From an uncultured Gammaproteobacteria bacterium (GTDB lineage: Bacteria; Pseudomonadota; Gammaproteobacteria; Pseudomonadales; Ketobacteraceae), in assembly GCA_913063125.1 (NCBI GenBank), contig CAJXZM010000003.1, positions 1 to 64,000 of the forward strand: a stretch of DNA of 64,000 nucleotides. The letters are read 5' to 3'. Numbering within the stretch: the first letter of the stretch is position 1; every line of letters starts with the position of its first letter. Below the pieces are notes generated by a model, which saw nothing but the letters and a program-made list of their open reading frames with translations, did no database searches and was not told the DNA's origin. Made by a program: the position numbers and the translations under genes. This document shows positions 41,466 through 63,806 of the stretch, one piece after another.

Positions 41466-41619
41466 TATTCCATCTTAAATGGCGGATTATAACTCGCTAA
41501 AGCCTCGACACAAAACCTAATGCTGGATAGCCAAGCAATGGATTTTCGTCAAAAGATGACTACACTAATCCATAGGACTAACAGGAAGGTTTATGACCGG
41601 GAAAAGTTTAACTTAGGAT

Positions 41620-44600
41620 ATGACAACGCTAGCCGGTTACACTGTAAATAACATCATCTACTCGGATGAAAATACCTTTGTAGCTCATGCTCTTAGCGTA
41701 GAAAATCAACCCGTTTTAGTGAAATACCAAAATACCGATTACCCGACTGTTGATTTGGATACGCGTTGGGCCCATGAGTTTGATGTATTACGCTCCATTA
41801 CATCTGATTATGTCATCCGCGCTCAAAAAATTTGCAAGCACAACAACAACCCATTACTCGTATTAGAATACTTCCCCTCTGTTCCTTTAAGCGAACTGAT
41901 TAAAAACGGCGCCCTTGATTTTGAACAAAAATTGTACATTGCCAATCAGTTAACATTGGCCGTGAGCGAGATTCACCGCCATAAAATGATACACCGAGGC
42001 CTTACCCCGCACTCTATATTGGTTAACCCTAAAACCTTAGTACTAAAAATATACGATGTTGGATTCGTATCACGTCTCGACAAAGAGACACACCTCAATC
42101 CCATCAGTATATGGGGAGCGCTGGAATACACCCCCCCTGAGTTAACGGGAAGAACAAACCTTGATGTGGACTACCGCTGTGATTTCTATTCACTCGGCAT
42201 TATTCTTTACGAAATTTTTCATGGACAACCACCCTTTCAATCTGAAGACCCACTTGCGCTATTACACGCTCATATCGCGAGCATGCCCACAAACCTTCGT
42301 TCAATTAATTCAGAATTTCCTCAACCATTATCGACCATTATTCAAAAGTTATTGGCTAAAGATCCTACCGATCGCTACCAAAGCGGTCACAGGTTACAAG
42401 CTGACATAGAGCGATGCTTGCAACAATGGCAAGACCATGGGTTTATTGACAATTTCCCTTTAGCTACACACGATATACCGGAGCGTTTTCTACTAGCGCA
42501 AAAACCTTATGGGCGCGAAGCAGAACAAAAAAAACTTCTCGATATTTACCAGCAAGTCAGTAAAGGTAATACCGAACTGGTATTTGTTAGTGGTGATGCC
42601 GGTATTGGGAAATCCGAGTTAACCCACGAGTTACACAAACATACACTTATCAATAACGGATTACTGATTAGAGGAAAGTGCAACCAATTCAATCAAAACC
42701 AACCTTACTCGGTACTTATTCAAGCCTTTACCACGCTAGTCGATGAGTTACTCAACAAAACCAACGAAACCCAGCAACACTGGAGCCACACACTGACTCA
42801 CGCTCTGGGTAATAATGCGGCCGTTATTACGGAAATCATTCCACGACTAGCATTAATTATTGGCGACATCCCAGCATTAGAGCCACTCCCTAACTCAGAA
42901 AGCGAACAGCGCCTACACATAACCTTCACTAATTTCGTAAAAGCACTATCAACACGCGAACAACCCTTAGTGTTACTGTTAGACGATTTGCAATGGGTTG
43001 ACCATCCAACGCTAAACCTATTAACCCAGCTCATCGCAAATAATGAAGGGATGTCACTACTCATCGTCGGAGCCTATAGATCTAATGACGTTGACCAACA
43101 CCATCAATTACCCACCTGGGAGAAATCAATCTCTCACTTTCAACAACATATTCATACGCTGCATTTGGAAACATTACACGTTAGTCATGTCCAACAATTA
43201 CTCATTGATTCCCTACAATGCAGCGCCCTCAAAGCGGCACCCTTAGCCACATTATGTCATGAAAAAACACAAGGGAATCCATTTTTTGTAAAACAATTTT
43301 TATACGGTTTATATGATCACAACGACATTTATTATGATCACCACGAAGGAATCTGGCAGTGGAATATTGAACAAATACAAGAGCGTAACATAACCGATAA
43401 CGTTGTTGTGTTTATGATGGACAAAATGTACAAGCTGGATACCGACACCCAGCACCTCATCTCACTAGCTAGCCTGCTTGGCGATTGTTTTACTCTACGC
43501 TTACTCTCCATTGTTTATGGGCAAAGTGCCGCAGAAACCGCCCGAGCATTATGGCCAGTATTACAAGAGGGTTTAGTACTCCCCCTCAATGAAAATTATA
43601 AATTCAATGAATCTCCAGAAAAGCTAATTCTAACACACTACCGTTTTTTACATGACCGGGTGCAGCAAGCAGCCTATTTTCTGATAAAGAAAGAAGAAAG
43701 ACCCGCATTAATGCTAAAAACTGGGCGACTAATATTAGCCAACATGACGAATATGCCCTATGTCATTCAGGAACAACTCCTATTTACTATTCTTGAACTC
43801 ATTAATAATTCTCGACAATTAATTAGCGACGCTACAGAAAAGTCTCAGCTATTAGCGCTGAACATTCAAGCCGGAATTAATGCAAAAAAAACGTCGGCCT
43901 TTCAAGCATCAGCTGATTTCCTAAAAATTGCAAAAGAACTATTACCAACAGACGCCTGGCAGAGTGCCCCTGAGCAAGCATTAACAGTTTACAAAGAGTT
44001 AACAGAAGCGTGTTATTTAGCCGGTAATTTTGACACTGCCGATGCATTATATCCTACTGCAATTGCGGCAGCGTCAACACCCAGTGCTAAAGTTAGCCTA
44101 ATTATGATACAAGCAACTCAATACCAACAACAAGGCCGCTTTGCCGATGCATTACCAGGATTACTTACCGGGCTAAGCTTATTGAACTGTGATTTTCCAC
44201 ACTCAGAGGAAGCCGCAGAAGAGCAACTCCCTGCTCTATTTGTCGAAACTCATCGCTTACTGAACACTCGCACAAAAGACAGCTTATTGAATGCAGAAGA
44301 GTTGACGCTACCAGAGCACTTATTGGAAATGGACCTCTACAGCGCTCTAACCGTTGTACTCTATCAAATGGGGCGGTTTAACGCATACGGTATTAACTCT
44401 TGTAAAATGCTCATGTTATCGCTTAACCAAGGGCTTTGTGATTTAACGCCTCTTGCCTATCTCACGAATGCTTGGGCCATGTCTAGAATGGGTGAGACAT
44501 ATCGCAACTGTTATCAAATGGCCAAACTGGCTATCACACTGACAGACCAACGCGACAGTCGTTATCACAGAGTACTTATTTATCAAGGTTTTGCAGCATT

Positions 44601-47430
44601 CTTTCAACACTGGGGAGAACCCCTTGAAAATACATTCACCCTGCTAGAAAGATCAGCTGAATGGGGTTATGAAGGTCTCAATTTAACCGCAGCAGGTCAC
44701 GCTGTATTATTGGGAGCAATGAATAAATTCAGTAAGGGTGAAAACCTTAAAAAAATTGAACAAGATACAATACCTGGGCTCGCCTTTTTATGCCGTACTC
44801 ACCAACAATCCACCGAAAACCTTGTTCGAATTGGTGTTCTTCAACCGTTATTCGCCTTACAGGGAGAAACCGATAATAGACTATCATTTACGACAAAAAA
44901 TTGTGACGTTTCTGCTTTACTAAACAATGATTTCTCTACTCCATCTATGGAATTGGCGATATACAGTCATGCGATGATACGCCATTCCTACTTAATGGAC
45001 GACACATGTAGCCAGCAAAAATTTATTCAAAATTTACCATTAATAGATGCTTGCCTACCTCATAGCCCCGCATTAACGGAAAGTACGTTCTATACCGCAT
45101 TATCATTACTTACATCGATAAAGCCAGGGGACGAAGAATTTACAGGAAATTTAGATACAGCAAAAAAATATGCCATTCAATTTAAACAATGGAGCGGATA
45201 CTGTGCTGATAATTTTGATCACCTCTATTTGTTAATAGAAGCTGAGATTGCTAGGGTCAGTGGGAGTTTTGACCAAGCAATGCCTCATTATAATCTTGCA
45301 TTGGATGCTGCCGAAAAAGCAGGATTCATTCAATATGAGGCACTCGCAAAAGAAAGGTATGCCTGTTTTTGGCGAAGTCTAGGACAAATACGTGTAGCCA
45401 GTGCCTTTATCTCTGAGGCCCACAGACTATATTCCCGTTGGGGCGCTATTGCTAAATGTGACCTGATTGTAGAAACATGGCCACAGATAACATTTAGAAA
45501 AATCGAAAGAAGAAATACAACATATGACAAAGCACTATCTAACGCTGCTCGGCATTCCCGAGTCGTAGATCAAACAAACTTATTAGATCTACACTCTCTA
45601 CTAAAAGCCAATCAAGTTTTATCAGAAGAAATAAAACTCAGTTCATTGCTTAAGAAAGTGATGGAAATATTGTTGGAAAATGCAGGGGCACAACGAGGTG
45701 CATTGGTACTCAGCGCCACAGGCGTAATCGAAGATAGTAGCCAACTTGTGGTTGAGGTATCTGGAAATCTCAATATAGGCGGACATATTGACTGTGAACT
45801 AACGGGCAAGACATTGATTGACATCCCTCATCAAACGTCAGACATCCCGCCAGAAATGTTACCCGAGTCAATCATTCATTATGTACAACAAACCCAACGC
45901 ACACTTCTAATTAATACTCCGTCTACGGACCCACGTTTTTCACAAAGTCATTACCTGCAAGTACAACAGCCAAAATCGGTATTATGCCTGCCCATTTCAG
46001 CGCAAGGAAAATTAGTTTCTATTGTTTATTTAGAAAACAACCTAACAATAAATGCATTTACTTTACAACACAAAGAGACCCTTGAAATACTCAGCGCACA
46101 AGTCGCTGTATCCCTTGTGAATGCCAGACTTTACGATATAGTTCTTGCATCATTGGGTTCAGCTGATCGTATTAATACGTTAAAAACCGAAGCACTTGAA
46201 GCAGCCGAAAGCGCCAATCGATTAAAAGACGAGTTTATGTCAACAATAACGCATGAACTCTTAACACCGATCAATGGTATTCGTCTCAGTCTCTCATTAC
46301 TAAAGCCCGGCGTATCTGGTGAATATTGTGATTTCCTTGAAACGGCAAATGACTCCAGTCAGCACTTGCTGAACATTATTGAGTCTACGGTTACCTTTGT
46401 AGAAGCAAGAAGAGGTACCATCCGACTAAAAAGAAAACCCTTTGACCTTCAAAAACCACTAAAAAATGTCTTTAATCTCTTTAATAACACGCCACACAAT
46501 ACCCATAATGATACCTCAAACAGCACTAAAAATAACAATGTCACGTTCCACTTTGAATGGATGCCAAAAACATCTATATGGATTATTGGAGACGAGGACA
46601 AACTATCAACGATCATCCTCCAACTAATGAAGAATGCCAATGCATTTACCAAATCCGGAGATATAACACTACATTGTGCAATTGAAAATACAGAGAGCCC
46701 CCAGGCAGTACTGAATATATCGGTAAAAGACACCGGCATTGGTATTCACGATGAAGTAAAAAACAAAATTTTCGAAGCCTTTAACCAAGTCGATAATACA
46801 ATGAAACGCCAACATGGCGGGATGGGCATTGGGCTAACGTTGGTAAAAGAATTACTTTCTCTCATGGGCGGGTCGCTTCATCTTGATTCAGAACCCCAAA
46901 AAGGGTCAACGTTCACATTACACATACCAGTACAAATAACGGCATCAACTGAACCCTGTGAATTACAACAAGATCCGTACATACATAGCACAACAGCACA
47001 TCAAACTGAACAAATAAATCTTCATCCAGATACTTTTAAACAAAGTAAAATCTTGGTAGTTGAAGACAATACCGTCAATATGATCTTGTTATGCAAAGTA
47101 TTGGAAAAATCAGACTACCAGCCGCTTCGTGCCTTTCATGGTGAAGAGGCATTAACGGTCCTCAATGAAAACCCAGATATCGTTGCTATATTAATGGATT
47201 GTCAAATGCCCATCATGGATGGATATGAAGCAACAAGAAAAATTCGCCAACAAGAAAAATACAAACAACTCCCAGTGATCGCAGTAACTGCAAATGTATC
47301 AGAAGAAGACCAAAAACGTTGCTATGAAGCAGGTATGAGCGAATTTCTCGCTAAACCAATTAAAAGAGCAGCGTTAGAGTCTATTTTACTCAAATGGTTA
47401 AGCGCCACACACCAACAGGCACGCCGTTAA
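41620..47430 (+). CDS. Giant sensor: pseudokinase-AAA-helical-GAF-HisKA-HATPase-REC
   Basis: This 1936-residue soluble protein has, in order, a protein-kinase-like domain (about 1-275), an AAA/STAND-type ATPase (Walker A near 324-331, GDAGIGKS; Walker B LLLDDLQW near 455), a long helical TPR-like middle (about 600-1320), a GAF domain (about 1330-1500), HisKA with H1544 (THELLTP), HATPase (about 1640-1760) and a receiver with phospho-acceptor near D1859 (MDCQMP). Such trifunctional kinases are known but poorly understood. The kinase domain has lost the HRD Asp (H125-R126-G127) although K35 and D146 remain. It shares its layout with the minus-strand protein at 52140-57233. It probably starts an operon with the TonB receptor 30 bp downstream. 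Confidence 0.9.
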   Translation: MTTLAGYTVNNIIYSDENTFVAHALSVENQPVLVKYQNTDYPTVDLDTRWAHEFDVLRSITSDYVIRAQKICKHNNNPLLVLEYFPSVPLSELIKNGALDFEQKLYIANQLTLAVSEIHRHKMIHRGLTPHSILVNPKTLVLKIYDVGFVSRLDKETHLNPISIWGALEYTPPELTGRTNLDVDYRCDFYSLGIILYEIFHGQPPFQSEDPLALLHAHIASMPTNLRSINSEFPQPLSTIIQKLLAKDPTDRYQSGHRLQADIERCLQQWQDHGFIDNFPLATHDIPERFLLAQKPYGREAEQKKLLDIYQQVSKGNTELVFVSGDAGIGKSELTHELHKHTLINNGLLIRGKCNQFNQNQPYSVLIQAFTTLVDELLNKTNETQQHWSHTLTHALGNNAAVITEIIPRLALIIGDIPALEPLPNSESEQRLHITFTNFVKALSTREQPLVLLLDDLQWVDHPTLNLLTQLIANNEGMSLLIVGAYRSNDVDQHHQLPTWEKSISHFQQHIHTLHLETLHVSHVQQLLIDSLQCSALKAAPLATLCHEKTQGNPFFVKQFLYGLYDHNDIYYDHHEGIWQWNIEQIQERNITDNVVVFMMDKMYKLDTDTQHLISLASLLGDCFTLRLLSIVYGQSAAETARALWPVLQEGLVLPLNENYKFNESPEKLILTHYRFLHDRVQQAAYFLIKKEERPALMLKTGRLILANMTNMPYVIQEQLLFTILELINNSRQLISDATEKSQLLALNIQAGINAKKTSAFQASADFLKIAKELLPTDAWQSAPEQALTVYKELTEACYLAGNFDTADALYPTAIAAASTPSAKVSLIMIQATQYQQQGRFADALPGLLTGLSLLNCDFPHSEEAAEEQLPALFVETHRLLNTRTKDSLLNAEELTLPEHLLEMDLYSALTVVLYQMGRFNAYGINSCKMLMLSLNQGLCDLTPLAYLTNAWAMSRMGETYRNCYQMAKLAITLTDQRDSRYHRVLIYQGFAAFFQHWGEPLENTFTLLERSAEWGYEGLNLTAAGHAVLLGAMNKFSKGENLKKIEQDTIPGLAFLCRTHQQSTENLVRIGVLQPLFALQGETDNRLSFTTKNCDVSALLNNDFSTPSMELAIYSHAMIRHSYLMDDTCSQQKFIQNLPLIDACLPHSPALTESTFYTALSLLTSIKPGDEEFTGNLDTAKKYAIQFKQWSGYCADNFDHLYLLIEAEIARVSGSFDQAMPHYNLALDAAEKAGFIQYEALAKERYACFWRSLGQIRVASAFISEAHRLYSRWGAIAKCDLIVETWPQITFRKIERRNTTYDKALSNAARHSRVVDQTNLLDLHSLLKANQVLSEEIKLSSLLKKVMEILLENAGAQRGALVLSATGVIEDSSQLVVEVSGNLNIGGHIDCELTGKTLIDIPHQTSDIPPEMLPESIIHYVQQTQRTLLINTPSTDPRFSQSHYLQVQQPKSVLCLPISAQGKLVSIVYLENNLTINAFTLQHKETLEILSAQVAVSLVNARLYDIVLASLGSADRINTLKTEALEAAESANRLKDEFMSTITHELLTPINGIRLSLSLLKPGVSGEYCDFLETANDSSQHLLNIIESTVTFVEARRGTIRLKRKPFDLQKPLKNVFNLFNNTPHNTHNDTSNSTKNNNVTFHFEWMPKTSIWIIGDEDKLSTIILQLMKNANAFTKSGDITLHCAIENTESPQAVLNISVKDTGIGIHDEVKNKIFEAFNQVDNTMKRQHGGMGIGLTLVKELLSLMGGSLHLDSEPQKGSTFTLHIPVQITASTEPCELQQDPYIHSTTAHQTEQINLHPDTFKQSKILVVEDNTVNMILLCKVLEKSDYQPLRAFHGEEALTVLNENPDIVAILMDCQMPIMDGYEATRKIRQQEKYKQLPVIAVTANVSEEDQKRCYEAGMSEFLAKPIKRAALESILLKWLSATHQQARR

Positions 47431-47460
47431 ATACATGGCATTTTAAAAAGGAATTACAGC

Positions 47461-49896
47461 ATGGTATTCGCACGTTCATTTACTCCCGCTATATTGATCG
47501 TGATCTATTTAATATCCGTTAATACTCATGCAAATGAAGAGCAAAACAGCACTATCGAATCTAAAAAAAAACCCATCGATGAGGTTGTAGTAACTGCCAG
47601 AAAAGCAACTGAGAAACTGCAAGAGGTCCCCATCAGTATTTCCGTAATAGACAAAAAAAAAATACACGACCTGGTGATCAATGACTTACAAGACCTCAGT
47701 GTTTATGTGCCAGGGCTACAACAACAAGTATTACCCCTTGCCAGCCGCCTCATACTACGCGGTGTAACGTCAGGGGATAACAATGCATTTGAACAAGCAG
47801 TTGGCATCTACGTTGATGGTATTTATCGAGGCCGAATGAATCAGCAACATGCGGGCTTGTTTGATATTGAACAGATTGAAGTATTACATGGGCCGCAAGT
47901 CACGTTATATGGCAATAGTTCCATTGGTGGAGCCATTAGCATGACCACAGTAAAACCCCACATTACCCAAGAAGGAAACCCCAGCGTTGATATTAGCTAT
48001 CAACATGAATTTGAATACAATGAAGACTTAGTTAATCTTGGGATTAACATTCCACTATCCGATGCTGTCGCCGTTCGTATTGCCGGCAAATGGCGCGATC
48101 AACAAGATGGCATTTCAAAAAACTTATTTTCAGGGGACAACGAACCAACGTCAAAAGACGAGGCTTTACGAATCAGTGGTCTATGGCTTGCATCTGACCG
48201 ACTTACTATCGACGCACGATATGAGCAAGGGATCTTTGACTTACGGGGAAATGCATTTGATATTTACAAACATGCTGACGGTTCTGGTAATTCATTCCCA
48301 GGTTCAACGTTTACTGGCGTTAATGACGGTGCTTTAGATGCAGGAAATGGTGATCCCTTTAAGTATCAAAAAACCTATTGGCAGCTCGATACCGATGAAA
48401 CGCTCATCAATGCAGAGTATGAATTTGATACTGTAACCTTGACGTCGCTCACCGGTTACAGTCATTATCGATTTGAGCAGTCCATGGATGTCGATATCTC
48501 TCCAACAACCCTCATTAATACGTACCAAGACGAAAACTACCATCAATTTTCGCAAGAGATCCGTATTTCTGGAGAGGTCGAATCGGGCCTTCAGTACTTG
48601 GTAGGGGTGTATTATCAAAAAGATACGTTTAGGAATGATTACTTTGCCGATTTTAATACCCCCTTATTAGTATCCGCGGCGTTTTCTCTTTCTCCGAGTG
48701 ACGCTAAAGGACTAGCCTCCCCTTTCTCCCGTCATATTCTTCTTGAACAAGATACCGCTCAATGGGCTGCGTTTAGTAATGTGAATATTCCAGTCACCGA
48801 TCAACTAACAGCCTCTCTGGGTTACCGTTATCTCACCATTAAAAAAGAAGGGCTTCAAGCGGTACGTGCTGCCGATATAAACCACCAAGATAGTAGTGGA
48901 GATTTAGTTGATATACGCTATCTCTCAGACCCAACATTATTACAGGATGCGGACTACCTTTCTGACCCAACGGGATATAATCTCACTCCCCCCCAATTAG
49001 TACCCGATTATACGGCTGGTTACCTCATTGTATCCGCAGGAAACGGGGTTTATCACGAGTTTGATGGCCTACAACGCAAAGAACACCATTCGATGTTTCA
49101 GGCGGCTCTCAGTTATCAGTGGGATGAAAACCTCATGTCCTACCTCTCCTGGTCAAACGGCGCCAAAGCAGGTGGCTTTGATTTTTTATATGAGAAAGGT
49201 AACCGAGGTGACGTTATTTATGAGGATGAAGAAGCGAGTGTATTCGAAGTAGGTTTTAAAAAGAATTGGCAGATACTTCAATTAAATATGGCGTTATTTT
49301 ACGGTGAGTATGATGATTTACAAGTCTCTGTTTTTGATGGTGGTATTGGTTTCACCGTAGGTAATGCGGCAAGCTCCACCTCTAGAGGGCTCGATACTCA
49401 GCTCATCTGGCAACCCACCGCGCAATTTCGAACTATAGTACAGTTTGAATACTTAGATTTCACTTACGATGATTTTAACACCGCCAGTTGCCACACAACT
49501 GACCGATTAAACACGGGAAAATCCTTATGTGACGCCTCTGGGGATGAGACTCCCTTTGTTCCTAAAACAGAAGGGCTTATCGCATTTGAATATGAAAAGC
49601 CAATAACAGACAATCTAAAAATACAGCATTTATTAAGCTGGCGTTACAAAGGCAGTCATACTACTGCCTCAGATAACGAACCCCAAACTCGACAGTCCGC
49701 CTATGAGCTTGTGGATTATCGGTTTGACCTTAGTCCAGCTGATGATCAATGGCGGATAAGTTTATTGATAAACAACCTGTTTGATAAGGAATATTTGGTC
49801 TTTACTTCAGTGATACCCCTAGCACCAGGGGCAGCCTTTGCGAACATTATTCCAAAAGGTCGGGAGATCGCATTGGCATTTCAATACCATTACTGA
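47461..49896 (+). CDS. TonB-dependent outer-membrane receptor
   Basis: A signal peptide (about 1-25) precedes a TonB box-like region (VDEVVVTARKATEKL near 38-52). The plug domain (about 50-165) contains RGVTSGDN and the IEVLHGPQVTLYGNSSIGG signature. The remainder is a 22-stranded-type barrel ending in the aromatic C-terminus FQYHY. TonB receptors import bulky ligands, usually iron chelates but also cobalamin, sugars, lignin fragments or lipids; the ligand is unknown. AAGGA precedes the ATG, and the start is 30 bp after the sensor kinase stop. Lipoxygenase follows with a 54-bp gap, so all three are likely co-transcribed. The length of 811 fits. Confidence 0.92.
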   Translation: MVFARSFTPAILIVIYLISVNTHANEEQNSTIESKKKPIDEVVVTARKATEKLQEVPISISVIDKKKIHDLVINDLQDLSVYVPGLQQQVLPLASRLILRGVTSGDNNAFEQAVGIYVDGIYRGRMNQQHAGLFDIEQIEVLHGPQVTLYGNSSIGGAISMTTVKPHITQEGNPSVDISYQHEFEYNEDLVNLGINIPLSDAVAVRIAGKWRDQQDGISKNLFSGDNEPTSKDEALRISGLWLASDRLTIDARYEQGIFDLRGNAFDIYKHADGSGNSFPGSTFTGVNDGALDAGNGDPFKYQKTYWQLDTDETLINAEYEFDTVTLTSLTGYSHYRFEQSMDVDISPTTLINTYQDENYHQFSQEIRISGEVESGLQYLVGVYYQKDTFRNDYFADFNTPLLVSAAFSLSPSDAKGLASPFSRHILLEQDTAQWAAFSNVNIPVTDQLTASLGYRYLTIKKEGLQAVRAADINHQDSSGDLVDIRYLSDPTLLQDADYLSDPTGYNLTPPQLVPDYTAGYLIVSAGNGVYHEFDGLQRKEHHSMFQAALSYQWDENLMSYLSWSNGAKAGGFDFLYEKGNRGDVIYEDEEASVFEVGFKKNWQILQLNMALFYGEYDDLQVSVFDGGIGFTVGNAASSTSRGLDTQLIWQPTAQFRTIVQFEYLDFTYDDFNTASCHTTDRLNTGKSLCDASGDETPFVPKTEGLIAFEYEKPITDNLKIQHLLSWRYKGSHTTASDNEPQTRQSAYELVDYRFDLSPADDQWRISLLINNLFDKEYLVFTSVIPLAPGAAFANIIPKGREIALAFQYHY

Positions 49897-49916
49897 TCAA
49901 TACTACTGATCAACAC
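49891..49916 (+). repeat. Tandem 13-bp duplication at the TonB receptor stop
   Basis: TACTGATCAATAC (49891-49903) is followed directly by TACTGATCAACAC (49904-49916), differing at one base. The TonB receptor stop codon TGA lies in the first copy. Most likely a small slippage duplication. Confidence 0.6.
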
Positions 49917-49950
49917 TACTACTGAAAAAAACTTGTTAAAGGATAAAACA

Positions 49951-52083
49951 ATGTCAGCCGACAACACCGTAAATAAATTGCCTACCCTTCCCCAACACGA
50001 CAACACAGAAGAACAGACTCAACGTGAGTTAGGGCTTTCATTAACTCGTACTGCATACAACTATATGTTTTCCTATGTCGAACCCGTGCCACTTTCAGCC
50101 GATTTACCAAAAGGTGAAGAGTTCACATTGGACTATGAAGCAAAAGTACTTGAAACGTTTTTGCCCATGGCAGAGAACTTTAAGAATGTGTTAGTGAAGT
50201 TACTAGAGAAGGAGCTGCAAGATGACATATCTGCCGATACCTTTAAAGACATTGAAACTGCATACCTGAATTTAAAGGAAGAGTTTAGCGTCTGGGATGT
50301 CAAAAAAGACATCGCCAATTTAGAAGAGTTTGTTGGCGATCTCGCCAAAATACCCGACGCAATTAAACATATGGTCAACATTCCTAAAGATATAGAAAAG
50401 ATGGCAACCGGTCTCAAAGTGGTGTTTGACGACTTCATTAAAAATGGACCAACTGCATTTTTAAAGTCCAGCATGAATGACATGCTCAGCACCGATCATG
50501 GGCGAGACTACCTGCAGGCAAATAGTATTGATGATTACGAGGCCCTTTTTGATACGATACCCAAACCGTTGATGCTGACTATGGAAACCAAACCATGGAT
50601 GAAAAAAGACAGCAAACCCTGTGAACAAGACTGGTTCTTTGGTTACTTACAAGTCGCCGGGTTCAATACCACTAACTTACGGGGAATCCAACTCGAACCA
50701 GCAGACAATTCGCACGCAATCAAGTTAGAAAGCTTACTGAAAAAGTTCCCTGTCACCAATGAAATTTTACAACAAGTAACTGGCGACTCGGTTATCACCT
50801 TAGACGAGGCGGCTCGACAACAACGACTTTACGCGGTTGACTATTCTACATTGGAAGGTGCAAAAACCAACAAAGTACACGGTGAGCAACGTTATCTCGG
50901 AGCCCCCATTGCATTGTTTTATTGGAACCAAAACCCACCGGAAGGTTACCCCCCAGGAAATGGTGTATTACAACCCATTGCCATTCAATTGGAACAAATT
51001 TTCGATGAAGAAAAAACACCCATATTCACCCCCAATGACTGTGCAAACGCCAATGATCCAAACGGCTTAAAATGGAATATCGCCAAGTACTTCGTTAACG
51101 TTTCGTGTGCTGTTCAGCATGAAACTGTAGCACACCTTGGGGACTGCCATTTAATTATTGAACCCATCGTGGTTGCCTCACACCGCCAACTATCAGAGAA
51201 CCACCCATTACTCAAGTTACTGATTCCACACTTTCGATTCACTATCAATATCAATGACGACGCCATTCATAGCTTAATCATTCCCGGTGGCGTTGTTGCA
51301 ACAAACGTTGGGCCTGCCATCGAAACAAGCTTGGAACTTATTTCTGCAGCCCACGAAGCATGGCGCTGGGACGATAACAATCCAAGTAATGTATTTCAAT
51401 TAAGAGGTCTTGATAAGATACCTGACTTTCCATTTCGTGACGACACCTTACAGCTTTGGAGCGCCATTCAAGAATACGTCACGGGTTATGTTAAAACCTA
51501 TTATAAAACTGACGACGATGTCATTAATGATAACGAATTACAGGGCTGGATCAACGAAATGGTTTCCCCTCTGTACGCAGGATTCAAGGGTTTGCAGGGG
51601 TTAAAAGAGACCGACAATCCCAAGCGATCTGCACAAATAGATTCCGTTGATTATTTAATTCAAGTTGTCGCCCAAATCATTTATATAGCAGGCCCACAGC
51701 ATGCCTCCGTTAATTATGCGCAATACCCATTAATGTCCTATATGCCCAGTGTTGCAGGTACCATTTACAAAGCACCACCAAGCAAAGAAACTGTTTTAAA
51801 AACAAAAGATGATTGTATCGCCTGGTACCCTCCACTGGATGTGTCTATTTATACTTTTTCATTCGAATATCTGTTGAGTGGCGTACAATATGACACCTTT
51901 GGCCACTACAGTGACAATGCAAGGTCTCCGTATTTTAAAGATACGCGTGTTCATGATATTGTCGCCGAATTACACGGTAATTTATCGATCATCGAAACGG
52001 ATATACGTAAAAAAAATGTGCAAAGACCAATGCCCTACCCTTTCCAGCTTCCTTCTCTAATCCCAAACAGTATTAGTATATAA
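49951..52083 (+). CDS. Bacterial lipoxygenase, predicted active
   Basis: Lipoxygenases add O2 to polyunsaturated fatty acids, giving hydroperoxides (oxylipins). All five iron ligands expected from plant, animal and Pseudomonas aeruginosa LoxA enzymes are visible: H390 and H395 (H-x4-H), H584 and N588 (H-x3-N), and C-terminal I710. Further family segments are DWFFGYLQVAGFNTTNLRG, HPLLKLLIPHFRFT and LISAAHEAW. The first 200 residues are helical, with charged amphipathic stretches, and may contact membranes. No signal peptide is present, unlike LoxA, so it is probably cytoplasmic. I place the start at the ATG at 49951 (AAAGGA upstream); TTG 49933 would add six residues. It ends the sensor kinase-receptor operon and faces the second sensor, 56 bp away. 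Confidence 0.9.
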   Translation: MSADNTVNKLPTLPQHDNTEEQTQRELGLSLTRTAYNYMFSYVEPVPLSADLPKGEEFTLDYEAKVLETFLPMAENFKNVLVKLLEKELQDDISADTFKDIETAYLNLKEEFSVWDVKKDIANLEEFVGDLAKIPDAIKHMVNIPKDIEKMATGLKVVFDDFIKNGPTAFLKSSMNDMLSTDHGRDYLQANSIDDYEALFDTIPKPLMLTMETKPWMKKDSKPCEQDWFFGYLQVAGFNTTNLRGIQLEPADNSHAIKLESLLKKFPVTNEILQQVTGDSVITLDEAARQQRLYAVDYSTLEGAKTNKVHGEQRYLGAPIALFYWNQNPPEGYPPGNGVLQPIAIQLEQIFDEEKTPIFTPNDCANANDPNGLKWNIAKYFVNVSCAVQHETVAHLGDCHLIIEPIVVASHRQLSENHPLLKLLIPHFRFTININDDAIHSLIIPGGVVATNVGPAIETSLELISAAHEAWRWDDNNPSNVFQLRGLDKIPDFPFRDDTLQLWSAIQEYVTGYVKTYYKTDDDVINDNELQGWINEMVSPLYAGFKGLQGLKETDNPKRSAQIDSVDYLIQVVAQIIYIAGPQHASVNYAQYPLMSYMPSVAGTIYKAPPSKETVLKTKDDCIAWYPPLDVSIYTFSFEYLLSGVQYDTFGHYSDNARSPYFKDTRVHDIVAELHGNLSIIETDIRKKNVQRPMPYPFQLPSLIPNSISI

Positions 52084-52139
52084 AAAGCCATGTAGGCAAC
52101 GCTAAAGGATTGTTAGTTCGAAGCATGGATGCTTCAATT

Positions 52140-55100
52140 TCAACCCTTTGCAGCACCTTCTTCAGCGCTCTCATGTACAATCACACAGTTACGCCCATTG
52201 TTTTTTGCGCTATAAAGCGCTTCATCCGCATTTGCCATCAATGTACAAGGGGGCATATTGGGGACTGCAACCAAGGTGCTCACTCCAACACTAATAGTCA
52301 CGTAACTTTCGACACTAGACTGTTTATGAGGCAAGGCTAAGTTGCGAACGGCATCAAGACAGGTTAACGCAACTAACAAGGCCATATCCTGATCTGACTC
52401 TGATAACAACACACAAAATTCTTCTCCGCCATATCGAGCAACAAAATCCATCGCTCGTGGCGCCGATAAACTGAGTGTATGTGCCACAGCCTTAATACAC
52501 TCATCCCCAACCAAATGCCCATAACCGTCGTTATATTGTTTAAAAAAATCAATATCTATCATCAATAACGACAGAGGTTTTCCATTTCGTAAACTTCGTC
52601 GCCATTCGCCTTGCAAACGCTCATCAAAAGAGCGTCGATTGGCGATATTGGTTAAGCCATCCTTCATCGCTATTTGACGTAATTCTTCTGTACGCAACGC
52701 TACTTTCATCTCCATTTTATCGTACAACATTGCATTAATGAGCGAGATAGCCAACTGAGTACTGAGTAACGTTAAGGTTTCTTTGTGACGGGTCGTAAAC
52801 GCTCCTTCCATCAAATTATTTTCCAAATAAATCACCGCAATCATATTACCCTGATACAAAATAGGAAGGCACATGACAGACTTAGGGTCATATTCTTGAA
52901 AATAGGTATTATAGGAAAAATACGGATCTTTAATAGGGCGAGTCAACACCAATGTACTTAGCGTTTTATGCACATGATGAATTAGCGCATCAGGTAATAA
53001 AGGGGCATCGCCTGTACAAACCCATTGCAATGTTTTTCCATAACGTTGGCAATCCAGTTCTTGTGATTTATTGTCAAATTTACCGACCATCTCTACAACC
53101 AACTGCCCTTCATCCAGCACAATAATACCGCATTTTTCTGCACCGGAATTCTCAAGCAACACCTCCATCATTCGACGAAGTAACGATTCCAAACCCAGCT
53201 CTTCTGACAGCAACTGATTCGCTTTCAAAAGAGAATGTAAATCCAGGACATCCGTTTGATGAGTCACTGTGGTCACTGTTTTTAAGGGATTACCATAAGC
53301 CTGTACACGTTCTTCTAATGCAAAAGATACGTACGGCCAATGTAATTCTAACAAATCACATTTAACTTTTGCTCCCCAGCATTGGTACAGATAATACGAC
53401 TCACGAATCAAATGAACGGCAATTTGTTTTTGTCCGTTCTGCAACCAGTATTGCGCATAAAGTTCATTGGCAATAGCCTCACACTGGATAAATCCCATTT
53501 TTTTCGCATCTTCTATCGCTAGAGCGTAACAGTCCATCGCCCGGGACCCATCACCCGCCAATGAGGCAATCTCGGCCTCAATCATTAAGTATTTATGCCG
53601 ATACGTTTCTGGACAGCCATCAGACCATTGCTTAAAACGGCATGCGTATTCTTTGACTAACGCCCTTTTTTCTTCAATGTCGTTATTGCTAATTTTATCG
53701 CCACATTGAGAAGAAGCAACATCCGCCAACGCGATAGATTCAATTAAAATCAACGTCGTAAAAAACAGGCTCTCCGAAAATGAAGGGCTATGAGGAAGAC
53801 AAACTTCAATAATCGAAAGATTTTGAATGAATCGTTGTTGCTGCACTCTAGCCTTCATAATAAAGGCGTGGCGAATCATTGCCTGACTAAACAACGCTAA
53901 TTCCATTGATGGTGTCGTATAATCCCCATCAAAAAAACCCGTCACATCTACACTTTTGGTATCAAAGGATATTGGATGCAGTGTTTTCCCCTGCAATGCA
54001 AGCGAGGGTTGCAATGTAGAAAATTTCACAAAATTCGCCGTTGACGATTGATGTGATCTACGCAAAAAAGCCAAGCCAGAAGACGACTCTATTTCTAACG
54101 TTCTTAACTTCACGCCACAAATAAATTTATTAACGCCTCCGAGTAAAACCGCATGACCTGCTGATGTAAAATTAAGTCCTTCTTGCCCCCATCTGACAGC
54201 TTTTTCTAACAACGGCAAGGTATTTTCAAGCGGCTCGCCCCAATGTTGAAAGAACGCAGCAAACCCTTGGTATATAAGTACCCGGTGATATCGATTCTCT
54301 CGCTGATCGACAAGTGTTAATGACAATCTACCAACATCATAACAGCGGGTGTAAGGTTCCCCCATCATCGACATGGCCCAAGCACTCGTAAGATAAGCTA
54401 ATGGGGTTAGATCACAATGACCATGATCAAACGACAATTTCAACATTTGACAGGAGTTAACAGCATAAGCATTAAACATACGCAATTGATAAAGAACTAC
54501 CGTTAGCACATTGTGCAATTCCATTGCCTGCAAATAATGTGGTTCCATCATCTCAGCCATGCCAAACATCTGCTCTTCAGAATGAGAATTCAACGTTTGC
54601 AAAGTCATCAAAAAGAATTCAGGAAGCAATACTTCTGCTTGCTCCTCTAAAGAGGGGAAATCAAACCCCAACAATGCTAAGCCTTCGACCAAAACAGGTA
54701 ACGCCTCGGTAAAACGTGTTTGCTGTTGGTATTGAGTAGCTTGTATTAACATTAAGCTGACTTTCGCCAATGCATTATTGGCGACACGAATAGCGATTGG
54801 GTATAACGCATCTGCCGCTTCAAACTCTCCCGCCAAGTACAATGACTCTGCCAATGCTTGATATACCAGTAACGCCTGTTCAGGCTCCTCCTGCCATACG
54901 TTTTCTGGCAACATCGCTTTCGCAATGCTAAAAAAACTAATTGCGGCGGGATATGCCGATGCGTTTCTAGCTTTAACTCCGCCACGAATATTTAACTCAA
55001 GTAATTGTACTTGTTCAACAGCATCAGTAATCAAATGATAAGAATCATTAATAAGCCCAAGAATAGTGAACAGATGCTTCTCCTGCACCACTTGTGGCAT

Positions 55101-57233
55101 CTTATCCATACGGGCTAATAATAACCGTCCCGCGTTCAACATGACGCTAGGGCGCTCCTCATGTTTAATCAACGTGTACGCAGCCTGCTGCACTCGGTCA
55201 TGTAAAAATTGATACTGCGTCAAAACCAGACGATCAGGAGCATCGCTAAACTTATAGTTTTCATTTAATGGCAAAATCAAACCTTGTTGCAGAAGCGGCC
55301 ACAGCGCGCGAGACGTTTGAGTAGGGCTTTGCTCACAAACAATGGAAAGTAACCGCAGGGTAAAACTCTCGCCGAGAAGGCTTGCCAACGAAATTAATTG
55401 TTGTGTGCGCTCATCCAATTTACACAACTTTTCCATCATAAATTCAACAACGTTGTCGGTGATCTGTCGTTGCTCTATTTTCCAGACATCCCACACCCAA
55501 GCACCCTTATCATAGTCGTAGGCAACCTCCCCCTCATCATACAACGACGTCAAAAATTGGCTCAGAAAAAAAGGGTTTCCTTCCGTTTTTTCATGACAAA
55601 GGCGTGCTAATGAATCGACATCATCACACTCACAAAGTAATGTGTCACTAATAAGCTCAGCTACCTGAGTTAAATCTAAATTTGACAGTTTAAGGTTATG
55701 AACCTCCCCCTGCACCTCTTTAACCGCATTTAATGTATGAATAAGGGGATGATTGTTATCCACCTCGTTATCTCTATAAGCACCAATGATCAGAAGTGCC
55801 GAGCTTTTCTCAGGCTGAATTTGTTGCTCTAATAATTTAAGCGTTGAGATATCAGCCCATTGCAAATCATCCAAAAATATCACTAACGGGCGACCACTCG
55901 AAGACAACGCACCCACAAAATGCCTAAACACTGTATGAAATCGGTTTTCAGCCTCCCCGGCAGGTAGAGACTGTAACGGCGGCGATGCGCCGATAATTTG
56001 TTCCAACTCAGGAATAAGATCTACAATCACCGGCGCATTGTCTGCAAGCGCTCGTCGCAATATAAACTGCCAATAATGCGATTTCTCTTCACCCTCGCTA
56101 ACCAGCTGACACATCAACGGTTGAAATGCCTGAATCAGCGCCGCATACGGTTTATTACTCGTAAATTGCTCGCATTTTCCTCGAATAAAAAGCGCCCGTT
56201 TTGACACAATGGGCTTATGTAATTCATTGACCAATGCGGATTTTCCAATACCAGAACGCCCACTGACAAGCAACAACTCTGAATGCCCTAAACAAACCCG
56301 CTCATAAGCCGCAAATATATCAGAGAGCTCTTTTTCTCGACCGTAGAGTTTATGAGAAATATGAAAACCTTCAGGCCTGTCACATTCACCCGTAACGAAT
56401 GTGTTGATATAACCTTCGGTTTGCCACTCTTTTAAACATCGAATTAAATCTTCTTGCAATCCAAAACTACTTTGATATCGGCCATCAGGAGATTTCGCTA
56501 ATAGCCTTAACACAATATCCGACAATTGCTCCGGAATAGACAAATCAACCGCATTTAGTGGCTCAGGGGCACGTGCTAGATGGGCATACAATAACGCCAT
56601 AGGGTCGCTATATTCAAAAGGTCGACGCCCTACAAACAGCTCATACAATGTCACTCCTAGCGCATAAAAATCACTGCGATAATCCACCGCTAAATTCGTT
56701 CGCCCACTCTGCTCCGGTGACATATAATCCAGCGTACCCCACACATGCTCAGTAATTCCCAGAGGGTGTTGGCCGGATAATTGTGTTGCCAATTCAAAAT
56801 CACAAATCTTAATTCTGAAAGTATCAATATCCACTAAAATATTTTTCGGAGAGATATCATTATGAATCAGCTGGTGCTTATGAACATCACTCAACGCCTC
56901 GCTCAACTGTATTGCTAGCCGTAATCGTTGAGTTAAATCCAATCGATTCGAATGCATGAGTTGTGCAAGGTTCAAAGGAGAGAAATCTTCTAAAACAAGC
57001 ACCATATTATTATTGATTTTTTCAAGACTTCGCGCTTGCACAACCCACGGTGATTTAATGGATTGCAATACCATAAATTCATGCTGCCAACGAGCATTGA
57101 GGTCTTCAGAGGGGTATTGTGCATTCTGATATTTAAGAATCACGCTATCACCTGATTCAGCAATAGCACGCGCGACAACCGTATTATCCACTGAGTGGAT
57201 AACTTCAGTTATGTCAAAGCCGGCCAATTTCAT
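52140..57233 (-). CDS. Giant sensor: kinase-AAA-helical-GAF-GGEEF diguanylate cyclase
   Basis: This 1697-residue protein has a protein-kinase-like domain (about 1-275; K34, H124-N125-D126, N131, Asp in CDFELA), an AAA ATPase (Walker A GRSGIGKS near 324-331; FLDDLQWAD), a long helical middle (about 600-1310), a GAF domain (about 1330-1490) and a GGDEF domain (about 1525-1685). GGEEF is intact and RxxD lies five residues before it, so it should make c-di-GMP with feedback inhibition. It aligns with the plus-strand sensor through the GAF domain and then carries a different output. The catalytic-loop Asp is kept, so true kinase activity is possible, though the usual Lys is replaced by Ser. It is convergent with the lipoxygenase operon. 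Confidence 0.9.
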   Translation of the reverse strand: MKLAGFDITEVIHSVDNTVVARAIAESGDSVILKYQNAQYPSEDLNARWQHEFMVLQSIKSPWVVQARSLEKINNNMVLVLEDFSPLNLAQLMHSNRLDLTQRLRLAIQLSEALSDVHKHQLIHNDISPKNILVDIDTFRIKICDFELATQLSGQHPLGITEHVWGTLDYMSPEQSGRTNLAVDYRSDFYALGVTLYELFVGRRPFEYSDPMALLYAHLARAPEPLNAVDLSIPEQLSDIVLRLLAKSPDGRYQSSFGLQEDLIRCLKEWQTEGYINTFVTGECDRPEGFHISHKLYGREKELSDIFAAYERVCLGHSELLLVSGRSGIGKSALVNELHKPIVSKRALFIRGKCEQFTSNKPYAALIQAFQPLMCQLVSEGEEKSHYWQFILRRALADNAPVIVDLIPELEQIIGASPPLQSLPAGEAENRFHTVFRHFVGALSSSGRPLVIFLDDLQWADISTLKLLEQQIQPEKSSALLIIGAYRDNEVDNNHPLIHTLNAVKEVQGEVHNLKLSNLDLTQVAELISDTLLCECDDVDSLARLCHEKTEGNPFFLSQFLTSLYDEGEVAYDYDKGAWVWDVWKIEQRQITDNVVEFMMEKLCKLDERTQQLISLASLLGESFTLRLLSIVCEQSPTQTSRALWPLLQQGLILPLNENYKFSDAPDRLVLTQYQFLHDRVQQAAYTLIKHEERPSVMLNAGRLLLARMDKMPQVVQEKHLFTILGLINDSYHLITDAVEQVQLLELNIRGGVKARNASAYPAAISFFSIAKAMLPENVWQEEPEQALLVYQALAESLYLAGEFEAADALYPIAIRVANNALAKVSLMLIQATQYQQQTRFTEALPVLVEGLALLGFDFPSLEEQAEVLLPEFFLMTLQTLNSHSEEQMFGMAEMMEPHYLQAMELHNVLTVVLYQLRMFNAYAVNSCQMLKLSFDHGHCDLTPLAYLTSAWAMSMMGEPYTRCYDVGRLSLTLVDQRENRYHRVLIYQGFAAFFQHWGEPLENTLPLLEKAVRWGQEGLNFTSAGHAVLLGGVNKFICGVKLRTLEIESSSGLAFLRRSHQSSTANFVKFSTLQPSLALQGKTLHPISFDTKSVDVTGFFDGDYTTPSMELALFSQAMIRHAFIMKARVQQQRFIQNLSIIEVCLPHSPSFSESLFFTTLILIESIALADVASSQCGDKISNNDIEEKRALVKEYACRFKQWSDGCPETYRHKYLMIEAEIASLAGDGSRAMDCYALAIEDAKKMGFIQCEAIANELYAQYWLQNGQKQIAVHLIRESYYLYQCWGAKVKCDLLELHWPYVSFALEERVQAYGNPLKTVTTVTHQTDVLDLHSLLKANQLLSEELGLESLLRRMMEVLLENSGAEKCGIIVLDEGQLVVEMVGKFDNKSQELDCQRYGKTLQWVCTGDAPLLPDALIHHVHKTLSTLVLTRPIKDPYFSYNTYFQEYDPKSVMCLPILYQGNMIAVIYLENNLMEGAFTTRHKETLTLLSTQLAISLINAMLYDKMEMKVALRTEELRQIAMKDGLTNIANRRSFDERLQGEWRRSLRNGKPLSLLMIDIDFFKQYNDGYGHLVGDECIKAVAHTLSLSAPRAMDFVARYGGEEFCVLLSESDQDMALLVALTCLDAVRNLALPHKQSSVESYVTISVGVSTLVAVPNMPPCTLMANADEALYSAKNNGRNCVIVHESAEEGAAKG

Positions 57234-57396
57234 CGCCTATACCCAGAGAGAAAACACAGATTAAGTGTAGCAAAACAATGTAGCTATTGCAGATTAAACG
57301 TTGACCAAGTCCCGCTCACAAATATACATTTTTGTATAAAGAAGAATAACTTAACGACCCCTTACCCGCCTCGTTTCTAGGCATTAACTGCCACGC

Positions 57397-57429
57397 ACAA
57401 AAAACCCGACTAGAAGCCGGGTTTTTTGT
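57397..57429. terminator. Strong terminator after fadBA
   Basis: A perfect 12-bp stem (57397-57408 with 57418-57429, ACAAAAAACCCG/CGGGTTTTTTGT) with a 9-base loop and T/A tracts lies 42 bp beyond the fadA stop. It is symmetric enough to work on both strands and also separates the sensor gene's upstream region. Confidence 0.9.
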
Positions 57430-57470
57430 CGTTAAAACTATCTAAACAGACAGTCTATACGCGCCTTAAT

Positions 57471-61127: not shown

Positions 61128-63806
61128 TTATAAATTGATCGCAAAGTCAAACTGCCTTTCAGCAGCCGGTGGCTGCAAGAAATCACCCGACACTAACCCG
61201 ACACCCTTCTGTATCACAGACAATAAGCACTCTGTATTTTCAACAAAGCCTGCTAACACAACAACCTTTCTCGCGGTTACCTGTTGCAACAACAATTTCA
61301 ATTGATCATTCCATTGGTCTGCATTTTCTTCCACCGTATATCGCCTGTCTAACTTCACAAAATCCACTTCAAAATACTCAAGTAGCGATAATGATTGCTG
61401 TGACCCTCCAAAATTAGAAATACTGACTTTTGCCCTCAACTCTCTTAATCGACGAATAGCATCCTGTGACTCAGCAAATGAAGCTAATAACAAGGCTTCT
61501 GGTAATTCAAATACACATTGCGCGGAATCAATGCCGCTGCCTTCAAATGCTTTTTTCAACCAGGGTACAAACGTTCTATCCGCTATCGTTTTTGCAGTCA
61601 ATTTAATAAAGAAAACGCTGATGTAGTTATTCATTCTATTAGCTTGACGCAATTCTTTCAGGGCCGACGCCACCACCCAGCGATCAATATAACTAACCAG
61701 TGCACTTTCATTCATAACACCCAAAAATTCTCTGGGAGTAATGATTTTCCCTCCCTCATTTAACCGAAGTAAGACTTCATAACGCTCATAACTATCCATC
61801 CCTAAACTAACTATTGGCTGATACACCAAACTTAAGCGCTTTGCTTTAATGGCCTGTTTAATCCTTTCAGACCAATCACCAATGTTAGCTTTATCAGTAA
61901 TAACATCAGGAACCTTTACCATTGAATCATTCAGTGTCTTTATATTACCACCCATATTATCTATGGCCGTATCAAACTGTGCACTCTGTTTATCTATTTC
62001 ATCAGGTTTAGTTTGCCAATGTATAGCCTTTACCGCATCACGCCCAGCAGCGTGCAAACTTGCATCTAACGATACATAACGTGAACCATTAAGGGCTCCA
62101 CTGCCAACTAAAACAGTGCCACAACCAATCATCGCACTTAGCATGACGCCATCCGCATATTGAGCAGAGAAATGTGCCATCCAATCGTGTATTTTTTGGC
62201 ATAAGGTTTCATGTCGTTGAGGATCAACCTGTGCAATGAACAATGAAAATTGGTCCACGCCAAAAGCTGACACTCTATCCATCGGGCTAAGTAGACTCAT
62301 TAACCCATGGGCAATTCTCTGCCTCAATATTTCATCGGCTAAACCTAACTCATCAGCAAACTCTATCAATGAGGTCACTTGAACTCTCATCATTACTGGT
62401 GGAGCATCCTCACGGACATCCAACGAGGACAACACTTGTTCACACTGGTTATAAAAACCCGTCACTGTTAACAGTCCGCTATCTGGTTCAACGTTTTTTT
62501 GATAACCCGATATCGCTAGTTGTCGACGATAACGCAACGCACAGGATTGTATTTTTAACAATAATTGTGTGTGTTTTTCAGCATACTTTGATTCAGCATA
62601 TTTAGACTCTACCTGCGCAGAATCAAAATGCTCAGGCCCTGCTAACTCAGCCATAGAAAATTGTCCGGCAGACCCCATCACTATTAATCGTAAAAAGTGC
62701 TCAGAGTAATGAACCTTACTCTCCGTTATAACAAACAGTGGCACAGCTTCCAGCAATGGGTCTTGACGTAATAACGCAAAGCACTTACGCATCAATACCT
62801 CATCCCCATGATCATATAGAACAACAACATCCACTGGCGTTGATTGCTTAAAACCCGCCACCAAATGTTCAATCAATACCGGTAATTGAGTGACTGTCGT
62901 AACCTGCAAATGTGCATTATTTAACGTACGCTCTATTAACAGCGATGATCGATTCTCAACATCACTCATCAATAACAAATTAAAGAATTTGGCCTTGGCA
63001 GTATGCTGTAAATTGTGTAACTCAGATACTAACGACACCAAAGGCACCGGCTCAGTATAAAAGCTATTCACACCAGCAGCTGCAGCGGCCATTCGGGATG
63101 TCATATCATTACTACGCCCAACAGCAATGCAAGGCACTCTCCCGTTACTTATAGCCATCACTGACAACAAATGCTCTTGACGATTGATAAGCTCCCCCTC
63201 AGTGACACCCCGCTTTCTTTCATTGCCATCAAAAACAAGGATAGCAACTGGCTCTCTAAATCTCACGGCATGAACCAAGTCATCCATACAACGAAATGAC
63301 AACACTTGATAACCATGGCCTTTGATATCCACTGCCAAGGCTTGACTTACTTGTGGATTCTCATCAAGAAAATACACACGAGAAGCAGTATTTGTTAAAG
63401 TCGCAACGTCATTTTCTGCCCGCCTTAACATTTCCTCCATTAAGTGCCGACAAAGGGTTTCCAGCATCTGCACACAAGATGACATATATTCGACAACAGA
63501 ACCGTTAATAGCCTCTTGTACTGCCCTCTGACTTCTTCCAAGAGCAATAACGGTACTTTCCATTTCACTTACTAGATCATAAACCTGGGTATAGCAACGC
63601 TCCTCACTGAGCTTCGCTATCTCATGCAACATCCTGCTGAATACGGTAAAGGATTCAGCAGAGAAATGGTTGTTAAGCACATCCTGCCAACGAAATGACA
63701 GGTTGTTAACCTCAGATAGCAAGGTGTGTAAATTTAGATGATCCGACCTATCTATATTCAATTCACTGAGATTCAACGGCTCTACATTCACACTCATGGT
63801 AAACAC
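61128..63806 (-). CDS. FimX-like protein with degenerate GGDEF and EAL domains
   Basis: The 892-residue protein has a helical N-terminus (about 1-140), a degenerate receiver-like domain (about 145-270), a second receiver-like segment (about 275-375), a worn GGDEF domain (about 430-600; the motif reads FGVDQF near 515) and an EAL domain (about 640-890). The EAL motif is E677-V678-L679, the same EVL as in P. aeruginosa FimX, and the DDFG pair is S797-N798. The downstream Glu context is also altered. Both catalytic sites thus look dead, leaving a probable c-di-GMP receptor. FimX controls type IV pilus assembly and twitching; no pilus gene lies in this window. A role in pili here is inferred from the family only. 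Confidence 0.8.
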   Translation of the reverse strand: MFTMSVNVEPLNLSELNIDRSDHLNLHTLLSEVNNLSFRWQDVLNNHFSAESFTVFSRMLHEIAKLSEERCYTQVYDLVSEMESTVIALGRSQRAVQEAINGSVVEYMSSCVQMLETLCRHLMEEMLRRAENDVATLTNTASRVYFLDENPQVSQALAVDIKGHGYQVLSFRCMDDLVHAVRFREPVAILVFDGNERKRGVTEGELINRQEHLLSVMAISNGRVPCIAVGRSNDMTSRMAAAAAGVNSFYTEPVPLVSLVSELHNLQHTAKAKFFNLLLMSDVENRSSLLIERTLNNAHLQVTTVTQLPVLIEHLVAGFKQSTPVDVVVLYDHGDEVLMRKCFALLRQDPLLEAVPLFVITESKVHYSEHFLRLIVMGSAGQFSMAELAGPEHFDSAQVESKYAESKYAEKHTQLLLKIQSCALRYRRQLAISGYQKNVEPDSGLLTVTGFYNQCEQVLSSLDVREDAPPVMMRVQVTSLIEFADELGLADEILRQRIAHGLMSLLSPMDRVSAFGVDQFSLFIAQVDPQRHETLCQKIHDWMAHFSAQYADGVMLSAMIGCGTVLVGSGALNGSRYVSLDASLHAAGRDAVKAIHWQTKPDEIDKQSAQFDTAIDNMGGNIKTLNDSMVKVPDVITDKANIGDWSERIKQAIKAKRLSLVYQPIVSLGMDSYERYEVLLRLNEGGKIITPREFLGVMNESALVSYIDRWVVASALKELRQANRMNNYISVFFIKLTAKTIADRTFVPWLKKAFEGSGIDSAQCVFELPEALLLASFAESQDAIRRLRELRAKVSISNFGGSQQSLSLLEYFEVDFVKLDRRYTVEENADQWNDQLKLLLQQVTARKVVVLAGFVENTECLLSVIQKGVGLVSGDFLQPPAAERQFDFAINL

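Follow-up and report, generated by a model that had tools for sequence, protein, structure and literature searches.

Large proteins in which a Ser/Thr kinase domain and a GAF domain are followed by a histidine kinase have been described in cyanobacteria as HstK-type dual kinases (cbSTKIII), and the available text of PMC2176072 includes an adjacent, duplicated pair of them, Alr0709/Alr0710. A kinase with six TPR and a GGDEF domain was already reported from Clostridium thermocellum in the portion available of PMC1262709, dual protein kinases being reported there too. Kinase domain, GAF, histidine kinase and receiver are likewise united in one large protein in the fungal hybrid histidine kinases Mak2/Mak3 and Chk1; Mak2/Mak3 relay H2O2 signals, and their peroxide-sensing domain is unproven according to the excerpted text of PMC3644883. 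Control of motility and biofilm by oxidised fatty acids, the kind of outcome considered here, is described for the Pseudomonas aeruginosa diol synthase (PA2077/PA2078), which differs in belonging to a di-haem cytochrome c peroxidase type family and in using monounsaturated substrates (PMC5155153, text available in part). The original prediction for the present locus had cited LoxA oxylipins as signals in P. aeruginosa, a statement that needs correction as to the source of the motility and biofilm effects. That bacterial oxylipins help to form multicellular structures is, in the accessible part of a 2024 review (PMC11011848), a hypothesis as yet without definitive confirmation, and the role of bacterial lipoxygenases is largely open.

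The window analysed here is a stretch of 64,000 nucleotides from an uncultured gammaproteobacterium, in which a lipoxygenase (LOX) gene and the gene of a giant diguanylate cyclase sensor are convergent neighbours. The four genes originally predicted and their domains were borne out by the open-reading-frame listing and Pfam. The features of the locus are as follows.

41526..41566, plus strand: conserved element with TACACT at its end, upstream of a plausible sensor-TonB-LOX operon and its putative promoter or leader
41620..47430, plus strand: giant sensor with histidine-kinase/receiver output, 1936 aa; Pkinase-AAA_16-GAF-HisKA-HATPase-Response_reg (Pfam), with a middle region between AAA_16 and GAF
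47461..49896, plus strand: TonB-dependent outer-membrane receptor, 811 aa; Plug and TonB barrel (Pfam), hydrophobic N-terminus
49951..52083 (ATG) or 49933..52083 (alternative TTG; 716 aa), plus strand: LOX; Lipoxygenase, Pfam E 6e-62
52117..52137, no strand assigned: inverted repeat TTCGAAGCATGGATGCTTCAA between the convergent genes, read from the sequence
52140..57233, minus strand: giant sensor with diguanylate cyclase output, 1697 aa; Pkinase-AAA_16-middle region-GAF-GGDEF (Pfam; GGDEF E 2e-46)

The plus-strand genes are separated by 30 bp and then 36 bp (54 bp up to the LOX ATG), which makes a single putative sensor-TonB-LOX operon plausible. The element at 41526-41566 is 83% identical over 41 bases to the region upstream of the TonB receptor gene in the sister species (G004) and is the sole blastn match between that region and the sequence upstream of the window sensor; with up to three mismatches allowed, the segment 41533-41566 is present at a single place in the own genome. 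From this sequence we infer a promoter role, the terminal TACACT being a possible −10 box, and TACACT is also found upstream of the cyclase sensor in both the window species and G004. The inverted repeat is identical in G004 and may be a putative bidirectional terminator; it was not among the results of the terminator scan.

Like the HstK-type kinases, the 41620-47430 sensor is a single protein with Pkinase, GAF, HisKA and HATPase domains, and its H, N and G boxes and receiver Asp are present. Its Ser/Thr kinase, however, has HRG instead of HRD and DVG instead of DFG and is therefore probably a pseudokinase, not the catalytically complete enzyme of the HstK type. The predicted kinase-AAA-GAF-HK-REC layout thus stands as to its domains but includes a degenerate kinase, which leaves the reading of the protein as a hybrid histidine kinase untouched. 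The minus-strand sensor was correctly said to end in GGEEF: in its output motifs, RAMD-FVA-RYGGEEF, both the RxxD I-site and the active site, a GG(D/E)EF motif as in diguanylate cyclases, are complete. Its own Ser/Thr kinase carries HND and DFE. In contrast to the cyanobacterial pair, the window sensors have different outputs (cyclase versus histidine kinase/receiver), enclose a LOX and include one degenerate kinase. The likeness to the fungal kinases, which are eukaryotic, lies in the architecture and a weak TPR_CHK1 match below the cut-off, not in alignment. We know of no LOX link of Mak2/Mak3/Chk1. Plasmid-borne relatives are 32-34% identical over 87-91% of the query among the best 20 of 219 records.

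The two window sensors are 51% identical across 1517 residues (within the first 1520). Scored 30 columns at a time, residues 1400-1509 are 37-57% identical and those beyond about residue 1500 are 10-30% identical (40% in one case). Residues 1504-1932 of the histidine-kinase sensor are 56% identical to a separate protein of the own genome (G000:C1:36056-37330, in an 806-aa frame), the match crossing one TAA; relatives occur at 47-54% identity in G002, G004 and G009. The histidine-kinase sensor is an accessory, output-swapped duplicate. A tree was calculated for 18 giant sensors (those outside it include G000 C261, C285 and the fourth C75 sensor, G003 C6, C165 and C266, and G004 C45, C78 and C221). 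In it the window and sister cyclase sensors group together, the histidine-kinase sensor comes next (92/92, not starred) and the cyclase sensor of G1074, a bacterium of another family in the same class, lies outside the window/sister group (node 100/100). The simplest history would be a duplication of the cyclase sensor in which the copy exchanged its output. The two window sensors have diverged further from each other (51%) than the window cyclase sensor has from that of the sister species (84%); the duplication thus seems to predate the separation of the species, and the sister species has probably lost its histidine-kinase copy. Giant sensors are numerous in the own genome (G000): contig C75 carries a further four, and other contigs hold fragments. 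One N-terminal fragment (C246, 652 residues) is, at 42.5% over its length, as identical to the window cyclase sensor as the G1074 sensor is, which counts against a special nearness of the latter.

LOX genes are uncommon: the order sample has them in 21 of its 390 genomes, the class sample in six of 369 and the phylum sample in four of 398, each count including the own genome. On plasmids, seven of 72,556 records match the window LOX, at identities of at most 33.0%. The comparison of neighbourhoods covered 22 loci other than the window, with 23 LOX genes between them (L035-L052 and L134-L137), a count that leaves aside fragmentary LOX matches (G025, G155), G071 (L053, with no LOX match) and weak class-level matches (G413, G426, G500, G616). 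Three of the 22 loci, those of G004, G1074 and G670, have a giant kinase-AAA sensor close to the LOX. In the sister species LOX and cyclase sensor (91 and 84% identical to those of the window, respectively) are again convergent neighbours, and the TonB receptor (84%) stays beside the LOX; the histidine-kinase sensor was not found at this locus, where a flavoprotein gene is followed by the conserved upstream element and the TonB receptor gene. In G1074 the LOX (53%) and a cyclase sensor (44%) are also convergent neighbours, and neither TonB receptor nor histidine-kinase sensor was found in the 20 kb around the pair.

The conserved unit is thus the LOX with one convergent cyclase sensor. The four-gene module of the original prediction, expected to recur in related genomes, is reduced to three of its four genes in G004 and two in G1074; it fails as a module, and a two-gene core survives. 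The proposed link of a LOX to a giant kinase-AAA-GAF sensor accordingly holds for the cyclase sensor and not for the histidine-kinase sensor, absent from both of those loci. Lipid import and phosphorelay, put forward as parts of the module, become optional layers, since the TonB receptor is missing near the G1074 pair and the histidine-kinase sensor at both loci. The earlier interpretation is in this sense partly supported. Our preferred reading, which we hold tentatively and at slightly less than an even chance, is that of a two-gene signalling unit in which the LOX product, directly or as a redox state, would tune the convergent cyclase sensor and through it c-di-GMP.

The flanks of the G1074 pair (a ComEC-like competence gene, an ABC transporter, LpxK, a cytidylyltransferase and a JmjC gene, without flavoprotein and thiolase) are unrelated to those of the window, so that the pair either stayed together amid changed surroundings or moved together. 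The LOX and sensor trees agree: in the tree of 23 LOX, those of window, G004 and G1074 are united at 99/98 within a five-member clade, and in the tree of 18 giant sensors the three LOX-linked cyclase sensors and the window duplicate are united at 100/100, the tree path from the window cyclase sensor being 1.28 to the G1074 sensor versus 2.40 to the next entry. Support for the pair outside the genus comes from one genome, G1074. After G004 and G1074, the LOX nearest to that of the window are those of G175 (50%) and G068 (49%). In G175 the contig ends 279 bp past the LOX frame, which leaves the presence of a sensor beyond judgement; near the LOX of G068, of the same clade, no giant sensor was found, so that the LOX does without one there.

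These comparisons bear on whether the genes are chance neighbours, all carried in together, with sensors that answer iron, nitrogen or oxidative stress unrelated to the LOX. The conserved proximity of LOX and sensor can stem from joint transfer, and the slot between the HI0933-like flavoprotein and thiolase genes is variable within the genus: it holds four genes in the window, three in G004, none in G003, and in G002 a receiver protein and a hybrid histidine kinase (Pfam, run on the G002 pair), G001 having the same layout (L120:6322-9726 and L121:7263-10677, compared with window 41466-57470). Iron deprivation induces the neighbouring dual kinases Alr0709 and Alr0710 of Anabaena (PMC2176072, text available in part), and in the window a TonB receptor gene stands between the two sensor genes. 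An iron-deprivation input would suit the TonB receptor but not the G1074 locus. A chance arrangement would leave unexplained that, of the proteins compared, the nearest full-length sensor and the nearest LOX beyond the genus are once more encoded convergently. We regard mere adjacency as a somewhat unlikely explanation.

Under the preferred reading, in which the sensor answers the LOX product, the putative input region would be expected among the middle and GAF parts. The G1074 sensor is 39% identical to the window cyclase sensor at residues 801-1100, 37% at 1101-1330 and 48% in GAF, versus 15-28, 20-31 and 26-37%, respectively, for five other giant sensors. Its kinase, too, is nearer to that of the window sensor (50 versus 32-41%), with little difference in the AAA domain (50 versus 45-51%), and the nearness in middle and GAF parts is therefore suggestive only and may reflect whole-protein kinship and not a shared input. 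One of the five others is the sensor of G670, the middle region of which is unlike that of the window (19 and 23%), which argues against one shared input for all LOX-associated sensors. In G670 the LOX is 26% identical, and the 2041-aa histidine-kinase sensor lies two genes off, past a RoxA-like cytochrome gene. The grouping of giant histidine-kinase sensor, RoxA-like cytochrome and distant LOX in that genome (L134:1-10547) is apparently a separate association.

The window LOX matches PF00305 at 210.5 bits (cut-off 23.6) across the catalytic domain and is the single LOX found in a search of the own genome. Its ATG at 49951, ahead of which stands AAAGGA, is shared with the sister species. The iron ligands, which we presume to correspond to those of soybean LOX-1, are all present (H401, H406, H590, N594 and the C-terminal I716, numbered from the TTG start; the family pattern is three His, Asn or His, and a C-terminal Ile), and H401, H406 and H590 are invariant columns of the LOX alignment. 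The AlphaFold model (mean pLDDT 84) has the LOX fold and the iron ligands of Cyanothece CspLOX2 (5med; Z 45.1, r.m.s.d. 1.6, 549 residues, 32% identity) and P. aeruginosa LoxA (5ir4; Z 43.7, r.m.s.d. 2.5, 572 residues, 28% identity). It differs from both by a helical segment near model residues 81-190, predicted with low confidence (block pLDDT 49-69), and the gene differs in having a giant sensor as neighbour.

LoxA has a secretion signal (available part of PMC11011848), whereas a simple hydrophobicity scan of the first 44 residues of the window LOX found no hydrophobic leader (best 12-residue mean 0.11, compared with 2.68 for the N-terminus of the TonB receptor); none was found by the same kind of scan in the LOX of G004 or G1074 either. 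The window LOX is thus, as judged from its sequence, probably cytosolic. An outward-acting enzyme that modifies host or neighbour lipids, with the sensors controlling its expression, would follow the precedent of LoxA, which is of similar fold and goes to the periplasm and partly outside (PMC11011848, text available in part). We consider this very unlikely in view of the missing leaders and of the polyunsaturated fatty acid synthase genes that the genome itself carries.

These genes are of the pfaABCD type and lie together on contig C77 of the own genome (L146, L148). PfaA (2421 aa) scores 3185 bits against a cut-off of 1010, the PfaB-family gene 225 against 144 and the PfaD-family gene 672 against 449; the PfaC-like frame, of at least 2422 aa, is named from position and domains. 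The last part of PfaA on this contig is a separate 270-aa frame. With these genes the cell can probably make long polyunsaturated fatty acids itself. Such fatty acids are the usual LOX substrate class, and a polyunsaturated LOX substrate is thus probably made inside the cell. Together with the missing secretion signal, the synthase genes make a reaction inside the cell more likely than the host-directed one that the available text of PMC11011848 and PMC5155153 discusses for LoxA.

The TonB receptor and the adjoining metabolic genes raise the question of uptake and catabolism, whereby the receptor would import a lipid or lipid-bound nutrient, the LOX oxidise it and beta-oxidation genes finish the process under regulation by the sensors. 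The receptor lies 36 bp from the LOX in the window and adjoins it in the sister species. Its best solved relatives by sequence, over residues ~36-211 (plug and barrel start; to 250 in one match), are siderophore, colicin, pesticin, haem, metallophore and PQQ receptors. A tblastn search (E 1e-6) found no relative of it at LOX loci other than that of the sister, and such a search misses other types of TonB receptor. Receptors of those types occur in G152, two genes away from the LOX (L042:5997-11089), in G014, between its two LOX genes (L040:1468-11065), and in G002, ~11 kb from the LOX (L038), which with the sister (L035) makes four of the 22 loci outside the window, as found among 33 frames of 580-1100 aa, part of which were run against Pfam. 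A looser tie between LOX and TonB receptors is possible. The thiolase and FadJ-type genes that adjoin the cyclase sensor could be read in the same way, but they are equally placed in G001, G002 and G003, which have no LOX there, and are therefore background. Catabolism of an imported lipid is further opposed by the lack of a TonB receptor within the 20 kb around the G1074 pair and by the missing secretion signal, as a LOX of this kind would miss a periplasmic lipid; we judge it unlikely. The beta-oxidation genes were rejected as part of the unit on their placement in those three genomes, as was the neighbouring EAL gene (61128-63806), relatives of which are equally placed in G001, G002 and G003.

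In the two-gene signalling unit that we prefer, PfaABCD would supply polyunsaturated fatty acids in the cell and, given substrate and oxygen, the LOX would convert some of them to a hydroperoxide or oxylipin. The product, or the resulting redox state, would be read by the middle/GAF part of the cyclase sensor, a giant receptor made up of a Ser/Thr-kinase-like domain, an AAA_16/STAND-type ATPase, a putative repeat-like middle region, GAF and the diguanylate cyclase output. The sensor would then switch c-di-GMP synthesis and with it surface or biofilm behaviour. In the window species the histidine-kinase/receiver duplicate may provide a second output, and the TonB receptor an uptake route for a ligand. 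That the LOX product is the signal, that signalling runs from enzyme to sensor and that c-di-GMP is what changes, we infer from gene content and linkage; the pairing of LOX and sensor genes also in a distantly related bacterium is why an oxidised fat may be an internal signal. Peroxide as the signal is suggested by analogy, as fungal kinases of like architecture relay peroxide (PMC3644883, text available in part).

A bolder and doubtful extension is that home-made omega-3-type fatty acids would be turned by the LOX into an intracellular, second-messenger-like lipid hydroperoxide reporting oxygen and membrane polyunsaturated fatty acid, for which the giant GAF/STAND-type protein would be the dedicated receptor acting on c-di-GMP, with duplication of the receptor in one lineage leading to phosphorelay. 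If true, one lipid signal would feed two bacterial signalling currencies, and an eicosanoid-like system would have arisen from bacterial receptors. A LOX beside a particular c-di-GMP sensor across families, in a genome with a probable capacity for polyunsaturated fatty acids, offers a testable receptor candidate for a bacterial oxylipin and suggests what one clade of the widespread kinase-AAA-GAF giant sensors may bind; the window sensors are, besides, a natural pair with related inputs and different outputs. The gene families are known. In the open-access literature searched, no LOX was described in connection with a diguanylate cyclase or a giant sensor, and the coupling of these two clades did not appear either; one paper that came up is, by title and abstract, on DSF quorum sensing in Xanthomonas citri. 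The original prediction likewise knew of no described system with such an arrangement.

A general tie of LOX to signalling genes is weak. A signalling domain is present in six of 42 immediate neighbours of the 23 LOX (22 loci, the window excluded), compared with four of 173 genes more than two genes away (Fisher one-sided p = 0.0045); the LOX of G232 (L052) is in two frames, the second piece being scored as an ordinary gene. The tie is weak because the six include the sister species and G1074, both MCP cases belong to LOX lineages that are sisters, and of the six small home-made profiles used, five were built partly from same-locus proteins, the MCP profile being derived from two LOX neighbours alone.

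In two further genomes (L050:7499-12941 and L051:6544-11962) the LOX gene lies between a chemotaxis receptor gene and a gene of 712-713 aa, a RoxA-like cytochrome by Pfam in L050, which makes these a further setting in which LOX and sensor genes are neighbours. On contig C75 of the own genome (L123, L147), four kinase-AAA giant sensors of ~1700 aa each are arranged in tandem. A cytochrome P450 gene adjoins the LOX in three genomes (L037:7629-8912, L045:7866-9632 and L046:7398-8672), where P450 and LOX may form a candidate oxylipin-processing pair.
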